Of a DNA stretch of 64,000 bases, positions 25,813 through 48,567 are shown piece by piece. The stretch is from Salinisphaera orenii subsp. orenii MK-B5 (lineage in GTDB: Bacteria; Pseudomonadota; Gammaproteobacteria; Nevskiales; Salinisphaeraceae), in assembly GCF_003788635.1 (NCBI RefSeq), contig NZ_AYKH01000044.1:62001-126000 (forward strand), in the 5' to 3' direction. The number at the start of each line of letters is the position of its first letter. Positions within the stretch are counted from its first letter, which is position 1. The notes under the pieces were generated by a model. The model worked only from the letters and a program-made list of their open reading frames with translations. It was not told the origin of the DNA and ran no database searches. The position numbers and the translations under genes were made by a program.

Positions 25813-26169
25813 GACCGCTGCGGCCGCGCGAATGCTCTGCCGGGCGGGCCGACGCGTCAGGTGACGGCTAGCCGAAGAGCGCGCACGCGTATCGCGGAAT
25901 CGCCGCGGCCGGCGGCGATGCCCGGTCCGAGCGAGGCCGCAGAGGTGCCGGTGCTGCTGGTCCTGACGACGGGAACAGCGGGCCTCCCCGGTGATTCGGG
26001 TGTCCGGCCGAGCGCCCGCGGCGAGTGGCAAGCATCGGACGACGACGACCGCATTGCGCTGTTCCGGCGTCCGGGCCGAGAACGACCGGCGACGACCGCG
26101 TTAAGCTGGTGCCTCCATGTTTCCCCGCCGGCCGGTTCGCCTGTCGGCGCATCGACCTTCGTGACTGCC
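25813..26169. other. Gene-free interval between lysA and polA
   Basis: This 357-bp stretch can be read as an in-frame extension of polA, but the polA homology begins only at 26170. No convincing terminator, repeat or additional gene was seen. It presumably holds the polA promoter. Confidence 0.5.
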
Positions 26170-28875
26170 ATGCCCCAAGACACCGCGCCCGCCGGCGGGC
26201 CGCTGATTCTCATCGACGGCTCGTCGTGGCTGTATCGCGCCTATCACGTGCTGCCGCCGCTGACCAACGCCGACGGCGAGCCCACGGGCGCGATCTACGG
26301 CATGACCAACATGCTGCGCAAGTTCCTGCGCGAATACGAATCGGACCGCATCGTGGTGGTCTTCGATCCCCGCGGGCCCACGTTCCGCAACGAGCTGTTC
26401 GCCGACTACAAGGCCAACCGCCCGCCGGTGCCCGAGGAGCTCTCGGCGCAGTTCGCCGGCATCCGCGAGGTCGTGGTCGCCCTCGGTCTGCCCCTGTTGC
26501 AGATCGACGGCGTCGAGGCCGACGACGTCATCGGCACGCTCGCCGCACGCGATACCGGCGAGGTGCTGATCGTGACCGGCGACAAGGACATGGCCCAGCT
26601 CGTCGACGAGCGCGTGCACCTGCTCGACACGATGCAGGACAAGCGCACCGACGTCGCCCGCGTGCACGAGAAGTTCGGCGTGGGCCCGGCGCTGATCACC
26701 GACTATCTCGCCCTCGTCGGCGACAGTTCCGACAATATTCCCGGCGTGCCCAAGGTCGGGCCCAAGACCGCGGCCAAGTGGCTGGATCAGTACGGTTCGC
26801 TGGAAGGCGTGATCGCGCACGCGGACGCCATCGGCGGCAAGGTCGCCGACAATCTGCGCGCCGCCCTGGACGATCTGCCGCTGTACAAGGATCTGGCCAC
26901 GATCCGCTGCGATCTGGAGCTCGGCGCGGCCGGGGAAGCGCTCACCCGCGGCGCGGCCGATCGCGAACGGCTCGCCGAGCTCTATCGCGGTTATGCGTTC
27001 CACAAGTTCCTCGAGGACATGGAGGCCGCGCCGGCGAGCCCGGCCGATACCTCCGAGGCGCCGGCCGAAACCCGTTATCACACCGTGCTCGACGCCGACG
27101 CGCTCGAGGCGATGATGGCCAGGCTGGAGGCCGCCGACCTGATCTGTGTGGACACCGAGACCGATTCGCTCTCGGCGATGGCCTCGAATCTCGTCGGCCT
27201 GTCCTTCGCCGTCGAGCCGGGCGAGGCCTGGTATGTGCCGGTGGCCCACGACTACATGGGCGCACCGGAACAGCTCGATCGCCAGACCGTCATCGACCGG
27301 GTGCGCGGCGTGCTGGAGGACCCTGCCGTTTCCAAGCTCGGCCAGCACATCAAGTACGACGTCAACGTCCTGCGCCGCCACGGCATCGACATGGCCGGGC
27401 TGGATCACGACACGATGCTGGAGTCCTATGTGCTCAACAGCACGGCCACGCGTCACGACATGGACTCGCTGGCCCAGCGCTACCTCCAGCGCGGCACCAC
27501 CAAGTTCGAGGACGTCGCCGGCAAGGGCGCCAAGCAGATCACCTTCAACCAGGTGGCGCTGGACGTCGCCACGCCCTACGCCGCGGAGGACGCCGACATC
27601 ACGCTGCAGCTGCACCATCGGCTGCACGGCGAGCTGGCGGGCATCCCTCGGCTGGCTGCGCTCTATGAAGAGATCGAGATGCCGCTCATGCCGGTTCTGG
27701 CGCGGATCGAGGCCAACGGCGTGCTCGTCGACCGCGATCTGCTGGGCCGGGTCAGCCGGGAAATGGCCGAGCGAATGCAGGCGGTCCAGACGGCCGCCTT
27801 CGAGGCCGCGGGCGGCGAGTTCAATCTGGGCTCGCCGGCCCAGCTCAAGGAGATCCTGTTCGACCGGCTCGAACTGCCGGTGATCCGCAAGACGCCCAAG
27901 GGCGCGCCGTCGACCGCCGAGGACGTGCTGCGCGAGCTCGCCGACCGGCACACGCTGCCGGCGATGATCGTCGACTGGCGCGAGCTGTCCAAGCTGCGCT
28001 CGACCTACGCCGACAAGCTGCCGACCCAGATCAATCCGGACACCGGGCGCATCCACACCTCCTATCACCAGGCGGTGGCCGCCACCGGCCGGCTGTCGTC
28101 GTCCGATCCCAACCTGCAGAACATCCCCATCCGCACCGAGGCCGGCCGGCGCATCCGCGAGGCGTTCATCGCGCCCCCGGGCCACAAGATCCTGGCCGTG
28201 GATTATTCCCAGATCGAGCTGCGGATCATGGCGCATCTGTCGGGCGATCCCGGCCTGCTGGCCGCCTTCAACGAGGAGCGCGACATCCACGCCGCGACCG
28301 CCGCCGAGGTCTTCGATACGTCGCCGGCCGAGGTGAGCGCCGACCAGCGGCGCGCCGCCAAGGCGATCAACTTCGGGCTGATGTACGGCATGTCGGCCTA
28401 CGGTCTCGCCAAGCAGCTCGAGACCTCGCGCGAGAACGCGGGCGCCTACATCGAGCGCTTTTTCGAGCGCTTCGCCGGCGTGCGTCGTTACATGGACGCG
28501 ACGCGCGAACGCGCGCGGGCCGACGGCTACGTCGAAACGCTCTACGGTCGCCGGCTGTACCTGCCGGAGATCAACTCACGCAACGGCGCGCGCCGTCAGG
28601 GGGCGGAGCGTGCGGCGATCAACGCGCCGCTGCAGGGCACGGCGGCGGATCTGATCAAGAAGGCGATGATCGACGTCGACGCGTGGTTGCGAAGCTCTGG
28701 TGAACCGGCGCGCATGATCATGCAGGTCCACGACGAGCTGGTCTTCGAGGTGCCGGACGCCGAGGCCGAACGGCTGGCCGACGAGATCGCGGCCCGCATG
28801 CGCGGCGTGGCCGCGCTGGATGTGCCGCTGCTGGCGGAGGCCGGTATCGCCGACAACTGGCAGAAAGCCCACTGA
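26170..28875 (+). CDS. polA: DNA polymerase I
   Basis: Pol I removes RNA primers and fills repair gaps. The frame is open from 25861, but the start is placed at the ATG at 26170 (MPQDTAPAGGPLILIDGSSWLYRAYH), giving 901 residues against 928 in E. coli. Residues 1-290 are the 5'-3' exonuclease (DGVEADDVIGTLA, GDKDMAQLV). The 3'-5' exonuclease keeps its acidic pair in VDTETDSLS, so proofreading is probably active. The polymerase domain shows motif A (VDYSQIELRIMAHLSG), motif B (RRAAKAINFGLMYGMSAYG) and motif C (QVHDELVFE). Downstream lies the sRNA locus. Confidence 0.97.
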   Translation: MPQDTAPAGGPLILIDGSSWLYRAYHVLPPLTNADGEPTGAIYGMTNMLRKFLREYESDRIVVVFDPRGPTFRNELFADYKANRPPVPEELSAQFAGIREVVVALGLPLLQIDGVEADDVIGTLAARDTGEVLIVTGDKDMAQLVDERVHLLDTMQDKRTDVARVHEKFGVGPALITDYLALVGDSSDNIPGVPKVGPKTAAKWLDQYGSLEGVIAHADAIGGKVADNLRAALDDLPLYKDLATIRCDLELGAAGEALTRGAADRERLAELYRGYAFHKFLEDMEAAPASPADTSEAPAETRYHTVLDADALEAMMARLEAADLICVDTETDSLSAMASNLVGLSFAVEPGEAWYVPVAHDYMGAPEQLDRQTVIDRVRGVLEDPAVSKLGQHIKYDVNVLRRHGIDMAGLDHDTMLESYVLNSTATRHDMDSLAQRYLQRGTTKFEDVAGKGAKQITFNQVALDVATPYAAEDADITLQLHHRLHGELAGIPRLAALYEEIEMPLMPVLARIEANGVLVDRDLLGRVSREMAERMQAVQTAAFEAAGGEFNLGSPAQLKEILFDRLELPVIRKTPKGAPSTAEDVLRELADRHTLPAMIVDWRELSKLRSTYADKLPTQINPDTGRIHTSYHQAVAATGRLSSSDPNLQNIPIRTEAGRRIREAFIAPPGHKILAVDYSQIELRIMAHLSGDPGLLAAFNEERDIHAATAAEVFDTSPAEVSADQRRAAKAINFGLMYGMSAYGLAKQLETSRENAGAYIERFFERFAGVRRYMDATRERARADGYVETLYGRRLYLPEINSRNGARRQGAERAAINAPLQGTAADLIKKAMIDVDAWLRSSGEPARMIMQVHDELVFEVPDAEAERLADEIAARMRGVAALDVPLLAEAGIADNWQKAH

Positions 28876-28935: not shown

Positions 28936-28963
28936 GGAACTCGGTGCATCCGTGCCGGTCTGA
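28936..28963 (+). promoter_or_regulatory. Sigma-E/AlgU-type promoter of sRNA unit 1
   Basis: GGAACT (28936-28941), 17 bp, then TCTGA (28959-28963) fits the ECF sigma-E/AlgU consensus GAACTT-N16/17-TCTGA. An A/T-rich patch lies just upstream. The predicted RNA begins about 7 nt further at the G of stem I. Confidence 0.72.
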
Positions 28964-28969
28964 TATTTC

Positions 28970-29082
28970 GTAAGCGCGATGCTTGCCCGCTTTTCTCCCT
29001 GAGCGGTAACCCAATCCGGTTCTCCCCCAAGACCGGAGTGCTTGCCCCGACGGTATTCCCCCTGCCGTCGGGGTTTCTTTTT
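28970..29082 (+). ncRNA. Predicted sRNA unit 1 of the polA-engB tandem array
   Basis: This is a predicted small RNA of about 113 nt with no plausible reading frame. Stem I pairs GTAAGC (28970-28975) with GCTTGC (28981-28986). Stem II pairs CCGCT (28987-28991) with AGCGG (29002-29006) around the loop TTTCTCCCTG. Stem III pairs TCCGGT (29015-29020) with ACCGGA (29032-29037) around a C5 loop. The terminator stem CCCCGACGG/CCGTCGGGG (29045-29073) is followed by a T-rich tail. Units 2 and 3 repeat the same plan. The interval polA-engB is where Spot 42 or ErsA lies in related bacteria; sequence similarity to these was not established. Confidence 0.75.
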
Positions 29083-29119
29083 GCGCGTCGTCCCGGTCCG
29101 AAATTTTCACGGGCCCGCG

Positions 29120-29147
29120 GGAACTCGGCCGCAGCGGCCCTGTCTGA
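29120..29147 (+). promoter_or_regulatory. Sigma-E/AlgU-type promoter of sRNA unit 2
   Basis: GGAACT (29120-29125), exactly 17 bp, then TCTGA (29143-29147). The spacing is the same as in units 1 and 3, although the spacer sequence differs, which argues that the hexamers themselves are selected. Confidence 0.72.
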
Positions 29148-29153
29148 ATCCAT

Positions 29154-29267
29154 GCAGGCGCAATGCCTGCCCGCTTTTCTCCCTGAGCGGTAACCCCCAA
29201 TCCGGTTCTTCCCCCGGAACCGGATCATTGGCCCCGACGGTTTCCCCCATCGTCGGGGCTTTTTTTT
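29154..29267 (+). ncRNA. Predicted sRNA unit 2 of the polA-engB tandem array
   Basis: This is a paralogue of unit 1, about 114 nt. Stem I is GCAGGC/GCCTGC, where unit 3 has GCAAGC/GCTTGC, so a pair has changed A-T to G-C with pairing kept. The CCGCT-loop-AGCGG stem II and its loop TTTCTCCCTG are identical. Stem III is extended to CCGGTTC/GAACCGG around a C-rich loop. The terminator CCCCGACG/CGTCGGGG carries the longest T-run of the three (eight T). No open frame with a ribosome site overlaps it. Confidence 0.75.
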
Positions 29268-29337
29268 CGCGCCACGCGATGGCCTGGCGTGCCCGGTCCG
29301 ACGCTCTGCCCGGCCGCAAAAAATTTGACGTCCGGCC

Positions 29338-29365
29338 GGAACTCTTCGCGACGGTCCCGGTCTCA
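29338..29365 (+). promoter_or_regulatory. Sigma-E/AlgU-type promoter of sRNA unit 3
   Basis: GGAACT (29338-29343), 17 bp, then TCTCA (29361-29365). The -10 differs from units 1 and 2 at one base, so this copy may be weaker. An A6T3 stretch lies just upstream. Confidence 0.65.
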
Positions 29366-29371
29366 TGTCAT

Positions 29372-29481
29372 GCAAGCGCAATGCTTGCCCGCTTTTCTCC
29401 CTGAGCGGTAACCCCGAATCCGGTCTCCCCAGACCGGATGGATCGCCCCGACGGTATTCCCCCTGCCGTCGGGGCTTTTTT
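29372..29481 (+). ncRNA. Predicted sRNA unit 3 of the polA-engB tandem array
   Basis: This third paralogue is about 110 nt. It begins 7 nt after its -10 element at stem I (GCAAGC/GCTTGC), followed by the invariant stem II with loop TTTCTCCCTG. Stem III is CCGGTCT/AGACCGG, which covaries with CCGGTTC/GAACCGG of unit 2. It ends with a CCCCGACGG/CCGTCGGGG terminator and six T residues. The three units recur at 184 and 218 bp, so the array is a tandem duplication that has diverged mainly in its promoter spacers. Confidence 0.75.
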
Positions 29482-29590: not shown

Positions 29591-29794
29591 TCATTTCGGC
29601 GGAGAAACGCCGGTCGAATCAACGAGTTGGTCGCGCAGGCTCAGCAACATGAGCTCGTGGAACAGCGATTTGATCGCCTGGGAGCGGTGTTCGCGGGCGT
29701 CCCAGGCCATGCGCAGGGTGCCCGACTCGGCGTCGAGGATCTCGAGCCGCGGCGAGCCTTCACGATCAAGCCATGCCTTGATGTCGTACGCCAT
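29591..29794 (-). CDS. Small protein of unknown function behind a Fur-like box
   Basis: This 67-residue protein starts MAYDIKAWLDREGSPRLEIL. The frame is open 18 codons further upstream, but only the ATG at 29794 has a purine-rich stretch (AGAGGG) before it. It has no signal peptide or membrane segment; the C-terminal half (HELMLLSLRDQLVD) is a probable amphipathic helix. I do not recognise the family. A Fur-type box lies 43 bp upstream and a strong terminator follows, so it looks like an independent, iron-regulated gene downstream of engB. Confidence 0.7.
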   Translation of the reverse strand: MAYDIKAWLDREGSPRLEILDAESGTLRMAWDAREHRSQAIKSLFHELMLLSLRDQLVDSTGVSPPK

Positions 29795-29836
29795 TGTGAT
29801 CGCCCTCTGGTGGATGGCGATTCGAGAATACATAGG

Positions 29837-29849
29837 AATGATTCTCATT
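29837..29849 (-). promoter_or_regulatory. Fur-box-like operator
   Basis: AATGATTCTCATT, read on the other strand AATGAGAATCATT, matches the core of the known Fur consensus GATAATGATAATCATTATC at 11 of 13 positions. It touches the engB stop codon and precedes the small gene at 29794 at a distance suited to repression by Fe-Fur. This AT-rich motif stands out in the GC-rich surroundings. Confidence 0.55.
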
Positions 29850-30460
29850 TACAAGTCGTCGACATCCGGCGGATAGGCCAGCGCCGCGATCGTCTCGCGC
29901 GCCTCGTCGATGCCGAAACGCTTGCTGGCCGAGAACAGCTGCGCGCTGGCGCCGTCGACCCTGCGCTCCACGCCGCGCAGTGCCTCGATCTGCTGACTCC
30001 GGGGCAGCTTGTCCGCCTTGGTCAGCACCAGATGAAAGGCCAGCCCATAGGCGCCGCCCCATTCGAGCAGCTGGCGATCGAAATCGGTCAGCGGCCGGCG
30101 CGCGTCCATGATCAGCACCACGCCGGCCAGCGGCTCGCGCTGACCGAGGTAGTGCTCGATGAGCGCCTGCCAGGCGGCCTTGGTCTTCGGCGGCACGCGG
30201 GCATAGCCGTAGCCGGGCAGATCGGCGAAGCACAGGGCTTCGCCCACGAAGAAGTTGATCGCCTGGGTGCGGCCCGGCGTCTTGCTCGTGCGCGCCAGGC
30301 CCGTGCGCCCGCAGATGGCGTTCAGTGCGCTCGACTTGCCGGCATTGGAGCGCCCGGCGAATGCGATCTCGGGGCCCGCAGGCGCCGGAAAAGCGCGGGG
30401 CGTGGGCGCGGAGCACACGAATCGCATGTGATTGAAGTCGTTGATGTGGAGCGCACTCAT
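29849..30460 (-). CDS. engB: Ribosome biogenesis GTP-binding protein EngB (YihA/YsxC)
   Basis: EngB is a small GTPase needed for large ribosomal subunit assembly. The start is placed at the ATG at 30460 (MSALHINDFNHMRFVCSAPT), giving 203 residues; the frame is open upstream without conserved sequence. G1 is GRSNAGKSS at residues 36-44, G2 TPGRTQ, G3 DLPGYGYA, and G4 is LTKADKL. Position between polA and cytochrome c4 is conserved in gammaproteobacteria. It transcribes towards the sRNA array. Confidence 0.95.
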   Translation of the reverse strand: MSALHINDFNHMRFVCSAPTPRAFPAPAGPEIAFAGRSNAGKSSALNAICGRTGLARTSKTPGRTQAINFFVGEALCFADLPGYGYARVPPKTKAAWQALIEHYLGQREPLAGVVLIMDARRPLTDFDRQLLEWGGAYGLAFHLVLTKADKLPRSQQIEALRGVERRVDGASAQLFSASKRFGIDEARETIAALAYPPDVDDL

Positions 30461-30631
30461 GAACACGGCATCCGGTTGTAGCGTGGTGGCGTGGGGCGTC
30501 GCGACCGGTCGGGACTGCGGCCGTGGCACCGGGTGGTATACAATAAATCCGTTTTCCACTGACGGTTGCAATCCGGTGGTCGCCGGCGCGCCGTCATTGT
30601 GCTGCCGATCCGTATCGGGGACGAATAGGAC

Positions 30632-47153: not shown

Positions 47154-47164
47154 CAGGGAGAAAA
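47154..47164 (+). promoter_or_regulatory. Porin ribosome-binding site complementary to the sRNA array
   Basis: CAGGGAGAAAA contains the Shine-Dalgarno sequence of the porin ATG at 47167. It is an exact complement of TTTTCTCCCTG, present in all three sRNA units at 28991, 29175 and 29393. A G6 run at 47141-47146 lies at the right side to pair with the C-rich loop of stem III. Confidence 0.55.
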
Positions 47165-47166
47165 TC

Positions 47167-48567
47167 ATGAGCACGACACCGAAGCGCACCACGCGTGTGG
47201 GCGCAGCCGTCCGCGGCGTACTGGGTACGACCATCGCCGTACCGCTTTTGTTCTCGGCCATGCCGGCCGCGGCGCAGAGTCAGCAGCAGCAGATGCAGGA
47301 GCTGCGTCAGCAGATCCAGGAGCTGCAGGGCCGTTTCAACGACCTGCAGGCCCAGCAGCAGCGCACCGAACGGCGCGCGAAACAGGCCGAACAGGCCGCC
47401 GCGGAGACGTCCGCGTCCGATGACGACGTATCCGGCTTCAAGGTGGGCAACACCACCATCGAGCTGACCGGTTACATCAAGGCCGACGCCGTGTACGGCT
47501 TCGAGGACGACCACGGCGCTACGCTCGGACCGTCCGACGCCAACCTCACGCTCCGTGACGAAGGCACCGATAGCCCCGGAGATCCGCATCTTGGCGCGAC
47601 CGTCAAACAGACGCGTCTGAAGCTGTCGACCACCACGCCTACCGCCATCGGCGATGTCGGAAGCTACATCGAGATGGATTTCTACGGGCAACCTTATGAT
47701 GCCGGCTTCGACGGTGGCCCGGCCCCGCGTGTGCGCCGAGCTTATCTGACATTGGGCAACTGGCTGGTCGGCCGCGACTGGTCCACCTTCTCGGACTTCA
47801 ACTACGGCACGATGCTCAACTTCTACGGCCCGCAGGCCCAGTTGTTCGAGCGTCAGGCGGTTCTTCGCTATACGTTTGAGCTTCCCGAGAACCAGAGTTT
47901 GGACGTTGCTCTCGAAACGCCGGAAGGCGACGGCTTTGATGGCCCGGATGGCACAACGGCCAGTCCCTACACCGGCATCGACGATACCGACGAGCCGGTA
48001 CCGGACTTCGCGTTCCGCTATAAGAATGCGGTCAGCGACAGCTTCAACTTCCAGATTGCCGGTATTGCCCGCATGCTGCAGGGTGACGTGACCACGGCGA
48101 GCGATGGTCAGGGCGACGAAGACCGTGCCTTTGGCTGGGGCTTGGACGCGGGCGCGAGCTGGAGTCTGCCGACCGGCACTACCCTCATGGGCACCGTTTC
48201 TGGGGGTGAGGGAATCGGCAAGTACATCTACGCGCCGGCTGGTGGCACCGACGGCTACGTCACTAATGACGGTGACGTTGAAGCACTCAGCCGCTGGGGC
48301 TTCATCGGTACGATTTCTCAGGAGTTGGCCGAGAAGTGGACCACCAATCTGGTCTACGGCAAGGCTTATTCCGAGGATCCGGATGACGCTTCCTTCGACA
48401 CCGATGCTCTCCATGATGAGTCTTCGTCGCTGGCGATCAACCTGCTGTACACGCCGGTGGATCCGTTCACCGTCGGTATCGAGTACAACCACGTGGACTA
48501 CGAGCGGCAGAACGGCGTCGACGCCGACGCCGACAATATCCAGGCCTCGGCGATCTACAACTTCTAG
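47167..48567 (+). CDS. DcaP-like outer membrane porin
   Basis: This 466-residue outer membrane protein has a signal peptide ending at AAAQS (about residue 38). A Gln-rich coiled coil follows (QMQELRQQIQELQGRF, about residues 40-80), and then a beta-barrel that starts with LTGYIKADAVYGFED and ends with a C-terminal aromatic residue (SAIYNF). Coiled coil plus barrel is the layout of DcaP, a trimeric porin that takes up dicarboxylates and other small molecules. The leader of at least 100 nt upstream is AT-richer than its surroundings. A strong terminator follows. Its ribosome site is a likely sRNA target. Confidence 0.88.
   Translation: MSTTPKRTTRVGAAVRGVLGTTIAVPLLFSAMPAAAQSQQQQMQELRQQIQELQGRFNDLQAQQQRTERRAKQAEQAAAETSASDDDVSGFKVGNTTIELTGYIKADAVYGFEDDHGATLGPSDANLTLRDEGTDSPGDPHLGATVKQTRLKLSTTTPTAIGDVGSYIEMDFYGQPYDAGFDGGPAPRVRRAYLTLGNWLVGRDWSTFSDFNYGTMLNFYGPQAQLFERQAVLRYTFELPENQSLDVALETPEGDGFDGPDGTTASPYTGIDDTDEPVPDFAFRYKNAVSDSFNFQIAGIARMLQGDVTTASDGQGDEDRAFGWGLDAGASWSLPTGTTLMGTVSGGEGIGKYIYAPAGGTDGYVTNDGDVEALSRWGFIGTISQELAEKWTTNLVYGKAYSEDPDDASFDTDALHDESSSLAINLLYTPVDPFTVGIEYNHVDYERQNGVDADADNIQASAIYNF

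Follow-up and report, generated by a model that had tools for sequence, protein, structure and literature searches.

Small RNAs encoded beside polA

The polA-linked place is common to the small RNAs (sRNAs) Spot 42, alpha-r7 and sX13, the last two of which also share C-rich loops, and the question whether more polA-linked sRNAs exist has already been raised (PMC3771888). In this study, we describe an array of three putative sRNA genes, each confirmed to carry its own promoter and terminator, between polA and engB of Salinisphaera orenii subsp. orenii MK-B5 (assembly GCF_003788635.1). The array lies in a stretch of 64,000 nt (contig NZ_AYKH01000044.1, positions 62,001 to 126,000 of the forward strand), which is called the window and is numbered from its first letter.

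Spot 42, which is under the control of CRP and not of sigma E, is encoded in E. coli by spf in the order polA, sRNA, convergent yihA/engB, the same place and direction as in the window. ErsA, presumably a single gene in each genome, shares this place. It is located in the polA-engB intergenic region (PMC8575079) and is induced by AlgU (PMC5819304), so that the original prediction, which was made from the letters of the window, was right in calling the locus that of Spot 42 and ErsA. However, ErsA is treated as one gene, against three to six copies in Salinisphaera, and its body is not recognisably like that of the units.

The array resembles sX13 in lying downstream of polA with three stems and C-rich loops, as in the published definition (PMC3771888). 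sX13 has three C-rich loops, through which it represses targets carrying G-rich motifs near their starts by 4C-4G pairing, and its levels are raised by high salt, 37 degrees and minimal medium (PMC3771888). Unlike the array, it is treated as one gene, occurs only in Xanthomonadaceae according to its authors and does not need Hfq, and the word RpoE is absent from the paper (PMC3771888). Anti-hemB (ncS04) is a 105-nt transcript of Burkholderia cenocepacia with coverage at its start, reported to bind Hfq (PMC5688073), and is also found in a table that gives no locus detail (PMC3521395). Like anti-hemB, the units carry CUCCC in a hairpin loop and a strong terminator, and named loci that match anti-hemB lie beside engB, as the array does. 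In contrast, the Salinisphaera units are tandem with one promoter per copy, while Rfam presents the family as one from Burkholderia (Burkholderia RNA 7).

MicA and RybB are RpoE-dependent porin repressors, in which RpoE induces the sRNA and the sRNA blocks the mRNA of an outer-membrane protein; the logic proposed below for the Salinisphaera array would be the same, although MicA and RybB are unrelated in sequence and are single genes elsewhere in the genome. OmrA/B, PrrF1/2, AbcR1/2 and the streptococcal csRNAs are likewise families unrelated to the Salinisphaera units. They also comprise two to six related sRNA genes, some of them tandem, but none is an array at polA-engB in the table of PMC4211561, as far as it was accessible. 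The listings of a literature search, made without most subscription journals, show no report of Salinisphaera sRNAs, none mentioning both ErsA and sX13, and no RpoE-type sRNA array at polA-engB. One paper, on radiotolerance by its title, mentions both Salinisphaera and sRNA terms.

Array of sRNA genes in the window

The 715-bp gap from the polA stop codon (28875) to a minus-strand open reading frame (ORF, 29591-29848) contains three homologous direct repeats (28936-29481), spaced by 184 and 218 bp. Each unit is composed of a promoter, stem-loops I, II and III, a 12-pair terminator and a T-run. The first base of stem I is at 28970, 29154 and 29372, in each case 7 nt past the -10 element, and the bodies, from the start of stem I to the T-run, are 110-114 nt long. 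The folds are far more stable than those of shuffled sequences (z -5.8, -6.8 and -7.0 for units 1, 2 and 3), none of 200 shuffles being as good. The features are listed below, with scores from a covariance model, R1, which was built from 49 of the 50 Salinisphaera copies (one copy is a duplicate sequence).

28936..28963, plus strand: promoter of unit 1, GGAACT (-35), N16, GTCTGA (-10); pattern match and conservation
28970..29080, plus strand: sRNA of unit 1, predicted 5' end about 28970, terminator 29044-29074 and T-run; fold z -5.8, R1 127 bits, terminator scan
28987..29006, plus strand: stem-loop II of unit 1, CCGCTTTTCTCCCTGAGCGG, proposed target-pairing element; conservation
29120..29147, plus strand: promoter of unit 2, GGAACT, N16, GTCTGA; pattern match and conservation
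29154..29267, plus strand: sRNA of unit 2, terminator 29230-29260 and T-run; fold z -6.8, R1 111 bits
29171..29190, plus strand: stem-loop II of unit 2, same sequence as in unit 1; conservation
29338..29365, plus strand: promoter of unit 3, GGAACT, N16, GTCTCA; pattern match and conservation
29372..29481, plus strand: sRNA of unit 3, terminator 29445-29475 and T-run; fold z -7.0, R1 122 bits
29389..29408, plus strand: stem-loop II of unit 3, same sequence as in units 1 and 2; conservation
25861..28875, plus strand: polA, DNA polymerase I (longest ORF, true start uncertain), upstream of the array on the same strand
29591..29848, minus strand: 85-aa ORF without Pfam match, between the array and engB
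29849..30490, minus strand: engB/yihA GTPase gene, convergent with the array (start approximate)

The original prediction had described this layout correctly, including the coordinates and spacings of three tandem units between polA and engB, their length of about 110 nt with a structured body and a rho-independent terminator, and the 7 nt between the -10 and stem I; the promoter that it wrote as GGAACT-N17-TCTGA/TCTCA is present before each unit and equals GGAACT-N16-GTCTNA. The EngB proteins of the window and of Salinisphaera halophila YIM 95161 share 99% identity. S. halophila likewise carries three units, whose stem-loop II is identical (L002). Of 12 other Salinisphaera loci, 7 have a similar ORF where the window has the 85-aa ORF.

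Copy number and descent of the units in Salinisphaera

The 556-bp array was sought in 14 Salinisphaera genomes and was found between polA and engB in 13; the remaining genome, G007, is 81% complete, so loss of the array there is not established. Counted with the conserved 20-mer, allowing up to four changes, the copies number 3, 5, 4, 3, 3, 4 and 3 in G000-G006 and 4, 5, 6, 3, 4 and 3 in G008-G013, 50 in total. Unfiltered R1 gave identical copy numbers in 12 re-fetched Salinisphaera loci, all of which are preceded by polA on the same strand and followed by a convergent engB, and it detected no unlinked strong copies across the genus, the next score below the 90.7 bits of the last array copy being 27.0 bits. 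The triplication seen in the window is one case of a genus trait of three to six copies and is not specific to the MK-B5 genome. In the five-copy array of G001, a transposase ORF, which we take to be IS5-like, lies between copies 2 and 3 (L105, 2376-3711), and all five copies still score 96-110 bits with R1.

A tree of the sRNAs (121 columns, modest support, 9 of 46 inner branches starred) places the first copies of different species in few groups, and the last copies likewise. The labels first, middle and last in the array need 8 changes on this tree, against a shuffled mean of 21.4 (0 of 200 shuffles as low), and genome labels need 35, a figure given without a shuffle comparison. Some middle copies, G009_3/4 and G010_2-5, are recent local duplicates. 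Since copies group by array position more than by genome, several array positions are old. This speaks for copies that are less than fully interchangeable, a difference that may lie in stems I and III.

RNA structure and the nearly invariant stem-loop II

In the 49-row alignment, stems I-III and the terminator form standard pairs in 95.3% of cases, and 16 of 29 pairs show changes on both sides, compared with 7.6 in shuffles (0 of 500 as high) and 2-6 in slid controls. Variation with covariation is seen in stem I, 85% of whose cells are paired, in stem III and in the terminator. Stem II behaves differently, because its 6 pairs are invariant in all 49 rows; the stem-loop (CCGCUUUUCUCCCUGAGCGG) is nearly invariant, and the 20-mer of the list is exact in 48 of 50 copies. 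Stem II is held by sequence and not by pairing alone, a sign of a partner that recognises this sequence. The invariance is not accounted for by peptide coding, as no more than 21 of the 50 copies have an ATG frame of at least 8 codons, and these frames are of three kinds.

Promoters and the putative sigma factor

GGAACY-N16/17-GTCTNA has three matches in the whole 3.67-Mb genome of MK-B5, which are exactly the three units. A backward control of this strict pattern likewise gave three matches. An isolated match might therefore be accidental, whereas accident hardly explains three matches that stand in register ahead of three repeats. Moreover, [GA][GA]AAC-N17/18-GTC is found before all 50 Salinisphaera copies in the 13 genomes (N17 in 44 and N18 in 6). 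Among the 44 N17 promoters, the GGAAC and GTC positions hold 1.7-2.0 bits and the spacer 0.06-0.65 bits, with the exception of a T following GGAAC in 37 of 44; in the -10 element GTCTNA, T comes after GTC in 42 and A is kept in 39. The promoter array is therefore real, as it is conserved on 50 copies over drifted spacers, and the sigma-E or extracytoplasmic function (ECF) type of promoter that had been proposed for each copy is borne out at the sequence level. Together with the polA-engB position, such a sigma-E/AlgU-type promoter is the arrangement of ErsA.

The gene rpoE is present in all 14 genomes, and in MK-B5 it adjoins an RseA-type anti-sigma gene (PF03872, 46 bits) and an ORF that is presumably rseB-like. 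An element [CA]GAACT-N16-GGTC is situated 118-124 nt before the rpoE start in 14 of 14 genomes, its -10 reading GGTCTA in 12 and GGTCCA in G000 and G003; it is likely to be an autoregulatory promoter of rpoE. This element shares GAACT and the spacing with the sRNA promoters, which makes RpoE the likely sigma factor of the sRNA array. The units thus also carry the RpoE-type promoter of RpoE-dependent sRNAs that repress outer-membrane proteins, with a -10 that is not identical to that of rpoE itself.

Predicted targets

The window holds both the array and, about 18 kb away, its best predicted target, a gene for a DcaP-type porin.

47154..47164, plus strand: CAGGGAGAAAA, ribosome-binding site of the porin, exact 11-nt complement of loop II, predicted target site
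47167..48567, plus strand: DcaP-type outer-membrane porin gene (PF19577, 65 bits), predicted mRNA target

The site in the porin leader exactly complements 11 nt of loop II (UUUUCUCCCUG), and the porin start is the best loop II pairing site among 1545 candidate starts of the window, outside the antisense strand of the array itself, although only this loop-centred ranking, and not the energy of the full stem-loop duplex, singles it out. Across the 14 genomes, CAGGGAGAA-N1-8-ATG, in which the complement of loop II serves as ribosome-binding site, occurs 70 times and its backward pattern 3 times. The control site CAAGGAGAA occurs 75 times and its backward pattern once, so the number of CAGGGAGAA sites alone says nothing. 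The largest homology cluster behind the CAGGGAGAA starts is the porin family with 9 members. Sixteen porin genes are present in 11 genomes (17 rows, two of which are pieces of one gene), and 9 of the 16 have CAGGGAGAA before the start, including 7 of the 8 with at least 48% identity, the porin of the window among them, and two more distant porins in G002 and G007. The 14-mer CTCAGGGAGAAAAG is exact only in the porin leader of G004, outside the antisense strand of the arrays. The DcaP porin is thus a good candidate for an sRNA target.

A broader envelope regulon is no more than suggested by the target starts taken together. By a crude ad hoc rule and counted per gene, an export signal is encoded after 35 of the 58 target starts and after 13 of the 55 control starts (p 1.2e-4), in a comparison that omits ORFs below 80 aa (12 of 70 target sites and 19 of 75 control sites), that counts once a control site shared by L259 and L278, and whose controls include several copies of one transposase gene. 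Sites of CAGGGAGAA also occur at lipoprotein-like genes of several Salinisphaera (L144, L150, L153, L158, L162, L164, L206 and L224), which are possible further targets.

Homologues in the order and class

Whole-genome searches with R1 covered the order and the class, and further groups were searched by named engB loci. In the order, R1 has matches at E <= 0.01 in 83 of 85 genomes (72 of 72 good ones and 21 of 21 genera); in the class, matches at E <= 0.001 are found in 142 of 377 genomes (137 of 367 good ones), which is probably a lower bound, as R1 knows only Salinisphaera.

Synteny, promoters and loops were counted in 44 loci outside the genus, which are the best-scoring ones and not a random sample, and which hold 47 matches. 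In 36 of them, the flanks covered show polA upstream on the same strand (27) or engB downstream and convergent (26); some of the remaining 8 are cut by contig ends. A promoter of the form GAAC[TC]-N-TC precedes 41 of 46 matches (shuffles 0.5, maximum 3; a partial second match in L066 was left out), and two of the five misses read GGAACA. CUCCC is within a hairpin loop in 45 of 47 matches (shuffles 2.4). Across the class, stem II covaries in 4 of 6 pairs in alignment A3, whose pair counts lean towards the model because A3 was fitted to it. Three class-level matches of 60-65 bits (L079, L080 and L086) have neither polA nor engB in their 1.5-kb flanks and are perhaps relocated copies. As well, L064, L065, L066, L068 and L077 possess CUCCC also in the first stem region, and they may have four C-rich loops.

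Six order loci of other genera, which were chosen for having several matches, hold 4, 4, 3, 2, 3 and 3 tandem copies. Two loci from other genera of the same family have one copy each, in genomes where R1 had 2 and 3 matches. Paired matches about 180-260 bp apart were also seen in other families of the class (G164, G201, G274, G334, G370 and G406), suggesting that this sRNA was duplicated in tandem more than once.

Outside Salinisphaera, 16 named engB loci were searched, and 7 show an R1 match beside engB at E <= 1 (27.8-36.5 bits), namely Methyloversatilis (4), Thauera, Sulfuritalea and one Proteobacteria metagenome-assembled genome (MAG); in six of them the match is 49-115 bp from the engB match, and five of these six pass the anti-hemB cut-off. 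R1 found no match at E <= 1 at the Azoarcus engB locus or in L011-L018 (Chlamydiae, a Bacillota MAG and alphaproteobacterial genera).

Relation to known sRNA families

At gathering thresholds, Rfam detects nothing in the window. The nearest families below threshold are anti-hemB (RF02837), with 37.2, 36.5 and 35.7 bits on units 2, 3 and 1 against a cut-off of 49.5, and sX13 (RF02232), with 38.6, 38.0 and 35.7 bits on units 3, 1 and 2 against a cut-off of 50 (E values 1e-5 to 4.7e-5 in a 711-base search). ErsA and Spot 42, the families named in the original prediction, are far below their cut-offs: ErsA/Pseudomon-1 (RF01719) gave 23.0 bits (E 0.038) on unit 2, 14.9 on unit 1 and no match up to E 10 on unit 3, with a cut-off of 50, and Spot 42 (RF00021) gave 17.5 bits (E 1.1) on unit 2 only, with a cut-off of 80. 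In the reverse direction, R1 scores 11.2 bits at E. coli spf, where the next match in the same 9 kb has 10.9, and homology to Spot 42 could not be shown.

At the homologous loci, anti-hemB is the only Rfam family at E <= 0.001 (37 of 40 loci, 42 matches). Its cut-off is passed in 8 of 40 other loci, which include two of the same order (L069 and L074) and five named engB loci; scores in order homologues, as printed, are 52.1 (L074), 49.8 (L069) and 49.5 (L076). The array shares a lineage with anti-hemB but, falling short of the cut-off, is not counted among its members. By their similarity scores, the units represent a branch, multiplied in copy number, of an sRNA lineage that is already known and widespread; they are nearest to anti-hemB and sX13 and are not the new sRNA family that the original prediction had considered.

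Proposed mechanism and alternative explanations

We consider it probable that the window encodes three sibling trans-acting sRNA genes, each transcribed by RpoE with its own terminator, whose loop II blocks envelope mRNAs, in the first place that of a DcaP porin. While the sequences themselves show gene structure, conservation, covariation, promoter conservation, synteny and copy number, we infer transcription, RpoE dependence, targets and direction of regulation as follows. Envelope stress would free RpoE, and RNA polymerase carrying RpoE would transcribe all three units separately, the parallel promoters giving a fast and high RNA output. The RNAs would present C-rich hairpin loops, of which loop II may pair with purine-rich ribosome-binding sites, so that the mRNA of the DcaP porin, and perhaps other G-rich starts, would be bound and its translation stopped, and the load of outer-membrane proteins would be lowered under stress. 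Since the copies kept separate identities, some division of labour is likely. The related RNAs lend support, as anti-hemB is a transcript in B. cenocepacia (PMC5688073) and sX13 represses via C-rich loops (PMC3771888).

Several observations weigh against this reading. The -10 of the rpoE element, GGTCTA or, in MK-B5, GGTCCA, differs from the GTCTNA of the sRNAs, and a stricter pattern with the sRNA-type -10 has no match upstream of rpoE in any of the 14 genomes. In the accessible part of PMC5688073, anti-hemB shows no significant change in seven tabulated conditions, and brief exposure to stress, including SDS, "largely" failed to induce sRNAs in B. cenocepacia. As for the target, 7 of the 16 porin genes are without CAGGGAGAA: the porin of G012, a close orthologue, has AAGGGAGTT instead of the exact site, and in the remaining six the site is a different purine-rich one or the start is uncertain. 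In 3 of the 14 genomes there is no match to the DcaP porin at E <= 1e-10, and the full stem-loop pairs with the wider porin leader no better than shuffles do (87 of 500 as low). Counted per homology cluster, export signals are found in 16 of 32 against 9 of 30 (p 0.13). Finally, upstream GGGG runs, which had seemed attractive in porin leaders as a second contact site, are not enriched overall (17 of 58 targets, where shuffles average 16, and 11 of 56 controls, where shuffles average 18), and this candidate was rejected.

An ECF sigma factor other than RpoE might drive the same genes, alone or alongside RpoE, which we regard as improbable: the -10 of the rpoE element is without the final A seen in most sRNA promoters, and anti-hemB is unresponsive to the tabulated conditions in B. 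cenocepacia (PMC5688073), but GAACT, the 16-nt spacing and the start GGTC of the -10 are present upstream of rpoE in every genome, and ErsA, at the same locus, is driven by AlgU (PMC5819304). A somewhat stronger competitor, though still unlikely, is a general dosage device, in which identical siblings supply a large RNA pool, for instance for Hfq titration or for blocking many G-rich ribosome-binding sites without special targets. The identical loop II in 48 of 50 copies, the varying copy number, the CAGGGAGAA sites before many unrelated genes and, per homology cluster, the lack of a clear excess of exported proteins over controls would all fit it. In contrast, the copies group by array position across species and the porin site is kept in 7 of 8 close orthologues, so that the dosage or redundancy system of the original prediction is weakened in its pure form by the tree and favoured by the shared loop.

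The remaining two explanations have very little probability. Three strong terminators follow one another after polA, and the units could be a stack of terminators or attenuators insulating polA from engB instead of independent genes, but each of the 50 copies has a conserved promoter, and neither the covarying 5' stem nor the nearly invariant stem-loop II is needed by a terminator. Small-protein genes or dual-function RNAs, like SpfP annotated in Spot 42, are just as remote: units 2 and 3 contain a 13-codon ATG frame, MQAQCLPAFLPER, but unit 1 has none, and the ATG frames are too few and fall in three different frames among the 50 copies, so that coding by the units was rejected.

Beyond the RpoE-driven sibling sRNAs that we prefer for the window, a wider scenario can be put forward tentatively, with confidence somewhat short of even. 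The polA-engB sRNA might be one ancient envelope-stress RNA of Beta- and Gammaproteobacteria, with an RpoE/AlgU promoter and a CUCCC loop, which is filed as anti-hemB, sX13 and ErsA, while Spot 42 would be an enteric derivative rewired from RpoE to CRP. Salinisphaera and its relatives in the order would have repeatedly multiplied this RNA in place, each copy with its own RpoE promoter and position-specific identity, as a multi-gene output stage of the envelope-stress response. The locus links sRNA families filed under different names, and an ancestral RpoE-induced RNA would be a testable reason for their shared place. For the general question why sibling sRNAs are kept as several near-identical RNAs, the nearly invariant seed loop, drifting bodies and separately conserved promoters of three to six copies in 13 of 14 Salinisphaera genomes make seed, scaffold and promoter separately testable.

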